35,925 nt of DNA from an uncultured Desulfovibrionaceae bacterium (GTDB taxonomy: Bacteria; Desulfobacterota; Desulfovibrionia; Desulfovibrionales; Desulfovibrionaceae). The position numbers were made by a program, and so were the translations under genes. Shown here piece by piece: positions 23,180 to 35,925 of the stretch (positions within the stretch are counted from its first letter, which is position 1; the number at the start of each line of letters is the position of its first letter). The DNA is taken from the NCBI GenBank assembly GCA_949741925.1, contig CATJOY010000020.1, forward strand, positions 1 to 35,925, given 5' to 3'. Below the pieces are notes generated by a model, which saw only the letters and a list, made by a program, of their open reading frames with translations, did no database searches and was not told the origin of the DNA.

Positions 23180-23467
23180 ATGAACCTGAAGCCCCTTAAT
23201 GACCGTGTTCTGGTCAAGCGTCTGGAATCGGAAGAAAAAACCGCCGGCGGCCTGTTCATCCCCGATACAGCCAAGGAAAAGCCTTCCAAGGGTGAAGTTA
23301 TCGCAGCCGGTCCCGGCAAGCTCGCTGACGACGGCAAGCGCGCTCCTCTGGCCGTTAAAAAAGGCGATACCGTTCTTTTCAACAAGTATGCCGGTACCGA
23401 AATCAAAATTGACGGCGTTGATCACCTGGTGATGCGCGAAGACGACATCCTGGCAGTTATTGAATAA
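23180..23467 (+). CDS. groES: Co-chaperonin GroES
   Basis: This 95-residue protein is a standard GroES. It opens [19 protein letters not shown], has the mobile-loop region [17 protein letters not shown] (residues 20-36), the roof segment [11 protein letters not shown] and the C-terminal [10 protein letters not shown]. It forms the heptameric lid of the GroEL folding chamber. TGGAGG lies upstream of the ATG, and a CIRCE operator precedes it. groEL follows 71 bases downstream. Confidence 0.98.
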
Positions 23468-23508
23468 CCGACGGCTTGCCGTTGCTCTATAACGATTTTT
23501 GGAAATAA

Positions 23509-25188
<1,680 letters not shown>

Positions 25189-25217
25189 GCCCTTTCCCCC
25201 ATCCCCTGTTCTCTCTC

Positions 25218-25243
25218 GAGGCCCCGCAAGGGGCCTCTTTTTT
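25218..25243 (+). terminator. Rho-independent terminator of groESL
   Basis: GAGGCCCC (25218-25225), a GCAA tetraloop and GGGGCCTC (25230-25237) are followed by six T residues (25238-25243). This is a textbook intrinsic terminator. Confidence 0.96.
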
Positions 25244-25338
25244 GCGGCGCGGCACATAGCCGGGAGGCAGCTCCAAAAACAGCAGAGGAATACGAGTGCG
25301 CTTCGTTGAACGTCGTTGTCGTTGTGTGACAGCCTTGC

Positions 25339-31989: not shown

Positions 31990-33408
31990 CTATAGGTATT
32001 TTTTGGCAAAGGCCTTGAGCGCCTGCACCATAATATCCATGGGCGGGGTCACGATACCCGCGCCCACTTGCCCCACGCCGGGCAGTTTATGGGCCACGCC
32101 GGTGTTGATAACCGGCAGCAGGCCTGTAGCGACCACCTTTCGGATGTCTATACCGGTGTTCACACCGGCAAAATCCACGTTGGGCATGGCGAGATCCGGG
32201 TTAGGACCGTAGGTTATGCGGCCCATGCTCCGGGTGTACTCAAGGGCATCCGCGAGGCCCCCGGCGCCGACAAAGCGGACCACGGCCGGAGCGGCGCCCA
32301 TGGCAAAACCGCCGATGCCGTAGCATTCGACAATAGCGGAATCGCCCATATCCGGGTTGGCCTCATCTTCGGTAAAGCCGGGGAAATACAAAGCCTTGGG
32401 CTTGAGGCAGGGAGCGGTAAACCACTCGTTCCCCAACCCGCTGACGTTGATGCCGAAATCCACGCCGTTGCGGCTCATGCAGGTAATAATGGTGCTGTAG
32501 GGAATATCCCTGGCCGCATCCAGCAGCGCCTTGCCCATGGCCATAGCCAAGTTGAGGAAGAATTGCTCGTTCTTTTTGACCAAGAACTCGACAATGGCCG
32601 GGCCGTTGGGATCATCCTTCAACACTTCGGCAAAGTCGGCACAAATGGCCTTGTAGAAATTCAGGCTGGCGGCCACGTTGCGTTGGTGCATTTCGTCGCC
32701 CATAGCCAGGGATTGGGCCGCAATGTTTTTGAGGTTTAAACCGCCCATGCGGACAAGGGCTTTATCCATGGCCGGCGCAAAAACCTTTTCCAGCCACTTG
32801 AGGCGCTCGATAACCTCAGGACCGTTGGCCCCGAAGCGCATAACCTTGCCGATGCCCTCGTTGATCGTGCAGTAGGCTGTATTGCCGTAGGTTTCGTTGA
32901 CCACCTCCCAAAGGGGCATGGAATAGGAGATCATGCCGGTCATGGGACCAACGCAGCGGTTGGCATGGTTAGGGCCGTAGGTGATCTCGCCGGAGGCCAT
33001 CAAGCGTTCGGCTTCTTCATCGGTTGCGGCCAAGCCTTCATATTTGAGGGCCCCGATATAGGCTCCGCGCATCGGACCGCACATATCTTCCCAACGGACC
33101 GGCGGTCCGGCGTGAAAAATGCTTTTTTTGGTCATGCCGGGAATGCATTCGTGGGCCGGGCGCAGGCGCTTAAGCACAGGCTGGCCCTTACAAATGCGGG
33201 TATAGGCTTCCTTGTTGGCCTTTTGGACCAGGGATTCCCCCTTCTCATCCACCAACTTGGTTTCGATGTTGAACAGAATATCCACCAAATCCGTATCCCC
33301 TTGGGCAGGCGGCCGCCAGTCCAGATGGATAAAGGGCGTGGAAGTTTCTTCAAAGGCGCGGTCAAAAGCATCGACGCCGAGAGCGGCGATATGCAGGGAA
33401 TCAGACAT
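31990..33408 (-). CDS. DUF1116 protein, YlbE/AllG-like (oxamate carbamoyltransferase-associated)
   Basis: This 472-residue cytoplasmic protein matches DUF1116. It has GPPVRWEDMCGPMRGAYIGA, YGPNHANRCVGPMTGMISYS, NGVDFGINVSGLGNEWFTAP and the C-terminal GVAHKLPGVGQVGAGIVTPP. In E. coli the DUF1116 protein YlbE (AllG), FdrA (AllF) and YlbF (AllH) have been reported to form oxamate carbamoyltransferase, which makes carbamoyl phosphate during anaerobic allantoin use. Here it overlaps fdrA by one base (TGATG). No DUF2877 (AllH) or carbamate kinase gene is in the window. It could therefore be part of an incomplete or different carbamoyl-transfer system. A decayed second copy lies at 28975-29230. Confidence 0.88.
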   Translation of the reverse strand: MSDSLHIAALGVDAFDRAFEETSTPFIHLDWRPPAQGDTDLVDILFNIETKLVDEKGESLVQKANKEAYTRICKGQPVLKRLRPAHECIPGMTKKSIFHAGPPVRWEDMCGPMRGAYIGALKYEGLAATDEEAERLMASGEITYGPNHANRCVGPMTGMISYSMPLWEVVNETYGNTAYCTINEGIGKVMRFGANGPEVIERLKWLEKVFAPAMDKALVRMGGLNLKNIAAQSLAMGDEMHQRNVAASLNFYKAICADFAEVLKDDPNGPAIVEFLVKKNEQFFLNLAMAMGKALLDAARDIPYSTIITCMSRNGVDFGINVSGLGNEWFTAPCLKPKALYFPGFTEDEANPDMGDSAIVECYGIGGFAMGAAPAVVRFVGAGGLADALEYTRSMGRITYGPNPDLAMPNVDFAGVNTGIDIRKVVATGLLPVINTGVAHKLPGVGQVGAGIVTPPMDIMVQALKAFAKKYL

Positions 33409-34952
33409 CAGTTCACCCCCCCGGCGGTTTTGGCGGCCCAAACAGCAGCCTGAGCGTTGCTGCCGGGCACAACAACCCCGGCTTTTTTCAAAGCTTCAAC
33501 CTGAGCGGCCCGCCCCGGCGTATCGGCATCCGTGCCGCAAACAGAAACAACAATGCGCTTCTTCGCTACTTCTTCAGGCGCAAGACGCTTGGCATCGTTG
33601 AGAGCGCGCATAAATTCGCCCACCTGGTCCTGGTGCGCGCCAAATCCGATAACCATATCCAGCAAAACCACCGCCACCTCGGGGTCGATCAGCTCGGCAA
33701 CCATACGCTCCATTTTAAGCTCCGGAGCCATCATGGGGTGGGGGCGGCCAACGGTGAACACATCGTCGCCGAAATCCCAAAAACAGTTACCCTTGCTTTT
33801 TTCATGAGCGGTAATCGAGCCGAAGCCCTTGACCTTCAAGTTGGCGAACTTCTCGCCCTTAAGGTACGGCGCGGCAAGCTCAGCGGCTTCCTGGCACAGG
33901 GTGCCGCCGCCGAAAAGCCCCCGCAGATAACCGGGCTTACCGGCCGGCGGCAGGGGAATATCCTGGAGCACCGTCTCTACCGGCGCAGCAGGGTTCAGAT
34001 GCCGGGCAACGGCAAGGGCAAGCTCGGTCAGGTTGGCCGCCGTGGTCAGCCCTGCGGCCTCTTCGGGCTTATGGTCCTCAGCGCCCAGATAGTGCACGAA
34101 AACCGGCTTGCCCAGGCCGGGCAAAATTTCGATCAGTTTTTTGCGGGTTGCCTCTCCCGGAGGCTTGCCTAGGAGCACAATGACCTTGGTTTCTTCGTCG
34201 TGGGCCAGACGGTGCAGGGCGGCAATGGCGGTCAGCCCGCCCACGTCATCCTTAAGATCCCGGCCGCCCGCGCCAAAGGCCTGGCTGATGCCCGCGCCCA
34301 AACGATCCAAGAGACAGATGACTTCCTGCAAGCCGGTTCCGGAGGCTCCGACAATGCCCACCGGGCCCTTGGCAACGCGGTTGGCAAAGGCCATGGGCAC
34401 GCCGTCAATGAGGGCTGTGCCGCAATCCGGCCCCATGACCAAAACGCCTTTTCGGGAAGCAAGCTGCTTTAGGGCAATTTCATTCTCCAGGGAAATATTG
34501 TCGCTGTACAGCATAACATCCATGCCCGCCGCCACGGCCAGGGCCGCCTCGTAGCGGGCATAATCCCCGGCCACGGAGATGATGGCAAAATTACAATCGG
34601 GGTCGGCTTCCAGGGCTTCCGCAAGATCATGGGGCACGCTCGCGCCGCCTTCGACGCTCCGCTTGGCCGGAACAGCCGCTAACAGACGTTTAACGGCTTC
34701 TTCGGCCTTGGGCAGAATATCGGCCGGAGCCTTGATAGCGATAACCAAATCATCAGCGCCCGCGGCCACCACGTCAGGCGTGCTGAGGCCCGAACTTTCA
34801 AAGAGTTCCTTGTTGCGGGGCGTGCCCATCATGGCTGAAATCTGCTCAGCGCCACTTTCAGTTTTTGCCTCGCTGGAAAGCTTCATCAAAAAGACCGAAT
34901 CCCGGTAGGTATCCGGCATAATTATAGTGTGTACCTTGGAATCTGGAGCCAT
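33408..34952 (-). CDS. fdrA: FdrA-like protein (AllF; acyl-CoA synthetase-like fold)
   Basis: This 514-residue protein resembles FdrA. It has MGPDCGTA (173-180), the succinyl-CoA-ligase-like loop GIVGASGTGLQE (199-210), FGAGGRDL (226-233) and VIVLLGKPPGEA further on. The second half contains GLFGGGTLCQEA and the conserved TVGRPHPMMAP segment. With DUF1116 and DUF2877 proteins it is reported in E. coli to make up oxamate carbamoyltransferase. AAGGAC lies upstream of the ATG at 34952. It is the first gene of the pair with the DUF1116 gene. Upstream there is a long region without genes that ends in the inverted-repeat element. Confidence 0.92.
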   Translation of the reverse strand: MAPDSKVHTIIMPDTYRDSVFLMKLSSEAKTESGAEQISAMMGTPRNKELFESSGLSTPDVVAAGADDLVIAIKAPADILPKAEEAVKRLLAAVPAKRSVEGGASVPHDLAEALEADPDCNFAIISVAGDYARYEAALAVAAGMDVMLYSDNISLENEIALKQLASRKGVLVMGPDCGTALIDGVPMAFANRVAKGPVGIVGASGTGLQEVICLLDRLGAGISQAFGAGGRDLKDDVGGLTAIAALHRLAHDEETKVIVLLGKPPGEATRKKLIEILPGLGKPVFVHYLGAEDHKPEEAAGLTTAANLTELALAVARHLNPAAPVETVLQDIPLPPAGKPGYLRGLFGGGTLCQEAAELAAPYLKGEKFANLKVKGFGSITAHEKSKGNCFWDFGDDVFTVGRPHPMMAPELKMERMVAELIDPEVAVVLLDMVIGFGAHQDQVGEFMRALNDAKRLAPEEVAKKRIVVSVCGTDADTPGRAAQVEALKKAGVVVPGSNAQAAVWAAKTAGGVN

Positions 34953-35645: not shown

Positions 35646-35690
35646 AAACCACGGGGCAGACCGATAAGCGTTCGGCCTGCCCCGTGGTTT
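35646..35690. terminator. Long bidirectional hairpin before the inverted-repeat element
   Basis: AAACCACGGGGCAG (35646-35659) pairs perfectly with CTGCCCCGTGGTTT (35677-35690), and CCGA/TCGG in the loop adds more pairs. A-rich bases precede and T-rich bases follow, so it should work as an intrinsic terminator in either direction. It separates the inverted-repeat element on the right from fdrA on the left. Confidence 0.8.
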
Positions 35691-35753
35691 GTTCATCGAA
35701 CAGAAAGCTCTCTTCGGATTCATCGACAGACGGACTGTCGATGAATCATTATC

Positions 35754-35782
35754 TCTATACAGACAACTCTTTTCTATAGCAA
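35754..35782 (-). promoter_or_regulatory. Leftward promoter candidate inside the inverted-repeat element
   Basis: On the minus strand TTGCTA (35782-35777) and TATAGA (35759-35754) are 17 bases apart. It would read toward fdrA but meets the strong hairpin at 35646-35690 first. In AT-rich DNA such matches arise by chance, so this is tentative. Confidence 0.3.
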
Positions 35783-35820
35783 GCAAAGTTTTTCCAATTT
35801 AATTTTTTAATTGGATTTAT

Positions 35821-35849
35821 TTGCCTGTATATTTTCTAAAATATATTCT
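35821..35849 (+). promoter_or_regulatory. Rightward promoter candidate inside the inverted-repeat element
   Basis: TTGCCT (35821-35826) and TATTCT (35844-35849) are 17 bases apart and read out through the right arm of the repeat, beyond the window. If the segment inverts, this promoter would point toward fdrA instead. The match is reasonable, but AT-rich sequence makes it tentative. Confidence 0.35.
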
Positions 35850-35925
35850 ATAACTATTATTTTTTTCACATTTTTTCTCATAAAAATCGACAGTCCGTCT
35901 GTCGATGAATCCGAAGAGAGCTTTC

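Follow-up and report, generated by a model that had tools for sequence, protein, structure and literature searches.

An inverted repeat at the end of a contig

The window analysed here is the complete contig C20, 35,925 nucleotides long, from a 2.79-Mb Desulfovibrionaceae genome assembled in 109 contigs. Its last bases raise the question of whether a short AT-rich segment enclosed by inverted repeats is an invertible promoter, a small transposable element, a fixed promoter between structured hairpins, or the product of assembly at a contig end. The exact 40-bp inverted repeat reported in the original prediction is present, with arms at 35703-35742 and 35886-35925 that are reverse complements of one another and lie 143 bp apart, as are the inner dyads with their 5-base cores (ACGGA and TCCGT) and the very AT-rich middle. 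The 40-bp arms had been proposed as the recombination site, a reading that must be revised: the conserved working unit consists of two inverted 21-bp sites of the form ATCGACAG-N5-CTGTCGAT around 143 bp of AT-rich DNA. The left site, ATCGACAG-ACGGA-CTGTCGAT, occupies 35722-35742 on the plus strand, with its core at 35730-35734, and its motif is found family-wide; the right site, an inverted copy on the minus strand, occupies 35886-35906, with the core TCCGT at 35894-35898. Between them lies the proposed invertible segment (35743-35885; 79% AT), and a homologous segment (72% identity) opens contig C35 of this genome. As expected of an inverton, the inverted repeats surround a small intergenic segment and are homologous in inverted register.

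The outermost parts of the two arms are of a different nature. The left arm's outer 19 bp (35703-35721, plus strand) is read as the genuine left flank, and the right arm's outer 19 bp (35907-35925, plus strand) is its reverse complement and runs up to the exact contig end. Outside the two sites of other elements, the flanks agree no better than chance (mean 32%), whereas those of the window match at 19 of 19 positions up to the contig end, and those of one RGIG1974 contig match at 95 of 95 up to the contig start, forming a perfect hairpin. Because flank matching is limited to these two contig-end cases, the right arm's outer 19 bp is suspect as a repeat; it probably derives from oppositely oriented reads joined in assembly and not from a true repeat. 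The right arm does touch the window edge, as first described, but that edge is the assembly end of the whole contig. By assembly logic, contig-end hairpins are what would be expected of a sample containing the two orientations together: read on its reverse strand, the flipped form would give segment, site and reverse of the left flank, and a contig following that form would fold back and stop at sequence already used.

A search for copies of the element in the genome and its relatives had been suggested, and copies were found, which shows that the repeat did not arise by chance: paralogous elements lie on two further contigs of the same genome, and pairs with matched cores recur throughout the family. 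The second element of the genome is complete (contig C48; cores TTGTA/TACAA) and precedes a DegT aminotransferase gene by 90 bp. The third is cut by the start of C35, so that contig ends truncate two of the genome's three elements (p = 6e-4). These copies bear on the alternative that the 40-bp repeat is purely an assembly hairpin and the element has no second site. Such an artefact would fit a repeat whose last base is also that of the contig, and an outer 19-bp match seen at contig ends and nowhere else. Against it, two genuine sites are present in dozens of internal elements and in the complete one on C48, the right site on C35 is homologous and differs in its core, and the artefact would still need reads joining the segment to the reverse of the left flank, making this explanation exceedingly improbable. 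The C35 element (L008, 100-480) leads into a T-tailed, terminator-like hairpin, after which come a stretch that resembles a TPP riboswitch by eye and then a thiS-like gene.

Matched cores across the family

The 21-bp site, allowing at most one mismatch, occurs in 25 of 288 Desulfovibrionaceae genomes, with named carriers that include Desulfovibrio sp. ZJ369, a Mailhella genome and Candidatus Bilophila faecipullorum. No sites were found in a same-genus genome that is 54% complete (G001), nor any elements in the viral contigs searched, and the lone site matches from six genomes in other genera (G025, G182, G189, G266, G275 and G293) are probably due to chance. Among the two-site elements from the 288 genomes (n = 27), the inverted cores agree at all five positions in every case except one, which agrees at four. 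A wider scan for paired sites in 84,980 species, in which the cores were left free, gave 5/5 inverted cores in 29 of 29 Desulfovibrionaceae pairs, with 21 distinct cores, as opposed to 1 of 53 pairs elsewhere. Since shuffling the right cores among loci reached at most 9 matches in 20,000 trials, the matching cannot come from core bias. A relaxed set of 52 matches, which was chosen for matching cores and hence is no evidence of matching, contains 32 different cores at a site spacing of mostly 159-166 bp. Cores mostly differ between loci of one genome, with some held in common, such as ACCGA at two loci of G115.

These patterns weigh on the possibility that the element is a MITE, or some other small transposon bounded by terminal inverted repeats and mobilised by a transposase. 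Such an element would leave what is seen, namely several copies scattered through a genome and alike in their internal sequence, but transposition does not explain cores that differ between copies and match within each copy. The outer flanks, moreover, show no conserved terminus, and constant terminal inverted repeats common to all copies were not found. We consider a MITE extremely unlikely.

The predicted promoter and its surroundings

Alignment of the elements reveals one common outward promoter near one end, with the consensus TTGCCA-17-TATTGA; in most of the 39 scored elements, 13 bp (also the median) separate the end of its -10 from the nearer site. At the promoter-distal end, many relatives carry a T-run just inside the site. 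An outward promoter within the segment is thus predicted from sequence family-wide, and the window's own match to it is weak. Here the predicted promoter is TTGCTA-17-TATAGA on the minus strand (-35 at 35782-35777, -10 at 35759-35754), reading left through the left site, and its -10 ends 11 bp from that site, near the family position. The plus-strand pair TTGCCT-17-TATTCT ends 36 bp from its site and is probably incidental. Of the outward promoters originally proposed in both directions, the promoter-like pairs do exist on both strands, but only the minus-strand pair lies near the family position, and two outward promoters are not upheld. Because the element profile scores the window element poorly on both strands and does not recognise it, the assigned orientation rests on the position of the promoter and on the T-run at the right end, where the promoter-distal site is followed inward by TTTTTAT to form a terminator-like hairpin reading into the element (35877-35906, minus strand).

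Immediately beyond the left site, in the direction that the promoter now faces, lies a 19-bp GC-rich hairpin (35646-35690) that may serve as a terminator or insulator. Its predicted folding is strong relative to shuffled sequences (z = -5.8 and -7.1 on the two strands), in keeping with the hairpin part of an earlier call of a strong bidirectional terminator; the terminator part fared less well, as the hairpin lacks a proper T-run and is absent from the list of the consensus terminator scan. A search of Rfam returned microRNA models only, all far under cut-off, which is an effect of the hairpins. The closest gene on the left encodes an FdrA-like acyl-CoA synthetase (33408-34952, minus strand) and is an unlikely target, lying 750 bp off and behind the hairpin. 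The predicted promoter points left into a strong hairpin, and the target is presumed to lie beyond the contig end. Further into the window, a minus-strand gene with a helix-turn-helix of the phage CI-repressor type (PF07022; 25339-25914) adjoins a 611-aa open frame without a Pfam match (23422-25257).

A lineage-specific tyrosine recombinase

Many of the elements adjoin genes for tyrosine recombinases (PF00589). At the 26 recombinase loci with a matched-core element nearby, the element is always on the 3' side of the gene, mostly 70-320 bp off, and the element-linked recombinases form a single clade (support 100/99). This fixed place between the recombinase 3' end and a surface gene, along with a promoter at a fixed distance from the site, is a further point against a transposable element. 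Recombinase and sites also co-occur across the 288 genomes, 17 of which have both, 8 sites only, 17 the recombinase only and 246 neither (p = 1e-12); in one genome with five sites (G004, 89% complete), the recombinase was not found.

The original prediction advised looking to the right of the window element for a recombinase gene; the genome's clade member sits on another contig. The genome encodes exactly one such enzyme, of 365 aa (C56:16962-18056), with no element beside it, and none of its three elements adjoins a recombinase gene. The catalytic R, K, HxxR, H and Y residues of this enzyme align to those of XerD, so that an associated tyrosine recombinase with intact catalytic residues is present, encoded in trans. 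At the homologous aminotransferase locus of G102, the recombinase gene adjoins the element.

Two further observations concern the recombinase genes themselves. In G116, a 132-aa recombinase fragment beside an element (L053, 1037-1435) is apparently a decayed copy, which suggests that elements can outlive the local enzyme. Near-identical recombinases with same-core elements occur in two different species (L050, 677-1711, and L068, 294-1328; branches of 0.02-0.03), a likeness that suggests recent transfer of the cassette.

Targets and promoter orientation

The genes beyond the elements mostly belong to surface structures, and the targets include several glycosyltransferase families, DegT aminotransferases, flagellin, an RTX protein, a chemoreceptor and polyketide synthases. 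Autotransporters are targets at eight loci that form one homology cluster, one of which was followed in sequence as far as its PF03797 beta-domain; the window's genome contains no autotransporter homologue that could be the missing right-hand target.

Both promoter orientations are seen at such loci. The paralogous glycosyltransferase genes of L195 and L167 are 83% identical and start at the same distance from their elements, and the promoter faces the gene in L195 and away from it in L167. At recombinase-adjacent loci, the promoter points toward the recombinase and away from the target, which would leave the target off, in about 20 of 26, with about three well-supported cases of the opposite. 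A clean ortholog-by-ortholog inversion was not found among the orthologous recombinase loci of different species, which mostly share the same promoter orientation; the opposite-orientation cases are paralogous or homologous targets.

These orientations, together with the linkage to a recombinase, also bear on an explanation in which nothing inverts, the promoter is fixed, and the complementary 5-nt loops pair as RNA or DNA structure, with core matching serving to preserve the pairing. The loops ACGGA and TCCGT are indeed complementary, and the promoter-distal hairpin with its T-run resembles a terminator. However, only one of the two hairpins would normally be transcribed, because the promoter starts transcription within the element, and this explanation leaves unaccounted for the linkage and co-occurrence with the recombinase clade, the opposite orientations at homologous targets and the hairpins at contig ends. 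A fixed promoter is accordingly very unlikely.

A proposed mechanism

Judged from the assembled sequences, with one genome per species, the element is almost certainly, at a probability of about 0.9, an invertible promoter on which a lineage-specific tyrosine recombinase acts, and it is one of dozens of its kind among relatives of Desulfovibrio that live in the gut. The phase-variable promoter switch first suggested for this locus is strongly favoured over a MITE by the matching of cores, the conserved promoter at a fixed place, the dedicated recombinase clade, the mostly surface-related targets, the opposite promoter orientations seen relative to homologous targets and the contig-end hairpins. 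Several points weigh against it: none of the genome's three elements adjoins a recombinase gene, G004 has sites and yielded no recombinase, promoters beside a recombinase mostly face that gene, and the window's promoter matches the family weakly at a locus whose target would lie off the contig. How the recombinase acts on the sites, where crossover falls, how expression is switched and which gene the window element controls all belong to a mechanism that we infer, in which the clade recombinase encoded on C56 would act in trans by binding the common half-sites, approximately ATTCATCGACA / TGTCGATGAAT, with strand exchange taking place within the central GNNNNNC. Half-sites of about 11 bp around a 7-bp centre are of a size typical for the crossover sites of tyrosine recombinases. 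Within a locus the two cores match in inverted register only, so recombination would flip the segment of about 165 bp with its single promoter. In one orientation the promoter would drive the gene beyond the right site, by analogy one for a surface structure; in the assembled orientation it would fire left into the hairpin at 35646-35690, and the presumed target would therefore be off.

Matching inverted cores should favour inversion within a locus, and differing cores should limit recombination between loci. It is perhaps an even chance that one recombinase clade and a common set of half-sites run many independent switches per genome, in which the freely evolving 5-bp core would act as a natural addressing code that keeps each locus flipping mainly with itself, the cores changing in concert at both ends.

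Relation to known systems

DNA inversion is well documented in Bacteroidetes and Clostridia as a means of switching surface structures. The RecV switches of Clostridioides difficile (PMC5903667) likewise have short inverted repeats around small, mostly intergenic segments and a tyrosine recombinase acting on several distant loci with motility and surface targets, although their repeats are reported to be mostly unrelated between loci, whereas the half-sites here are common and mainly the 5-bp core differs. Bacteroides fragilis Mpi and the Bacteroides inverton groups (PMC5903667, PMC11892184) share the arrangement of numerous invertible promoters in a genome, a single enzyme serving many loci, surface polysaccharide targets, and adjoining invertase genes oriented so that the promoter does not drive them; Mpi, however, is a serine recombinase from another phylum, with a different promoter and site sequence, and the enzymes here belong to PF00589. 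In Escherichia coli, fimS (FimB/FimE) and the switch of the UPEC autotransporter UpaE (PMC6083910) also involve a tyrosine recombinase that flips a promoter ahead of a surface gene, but at few loci per genome, and the recombinases here give marginal matches, far under cut-off, to the short NCBIfam models of the FimB/FimE type. The IntDes proteins of Desulfovibrio are also tyrosine recombinases confined to their lineage, with a function given as unknown (PMC8138268); their catalytic core is reported to be altered, and since normal residues align in the present clade, it appears to be a separate group.

A survey of 209 datasets found no inversion switches in its two Deltaproteobacteria (PMC5903667), the main text of a second inverton survey (PMC11892184) does not mention Desulfovibrio or Bilophila, and our search of a set of open-access papers returned no earlier description of such switches for either genus. 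If the proposal is correct, a multi-locus system lets gut sulfate reducers and related bacteria vary their adhesins, glycans and flagellin as well. The pairing of site cores makes the elements easily found from assemblies alone, and the elements offer naturally occurring core variants on which to test how recombinases keep parallel switches separate. Matching inverted cores were also seen at wider spacings of about 300 to 1160 bp, at 1824 and 2984 of L051, at 2555, 2599 and 2996 of L062, and at 855 and 1149 of L056; one of these pairs precedes a polyketide synthase gene, and they could enclose longer invertible segments.
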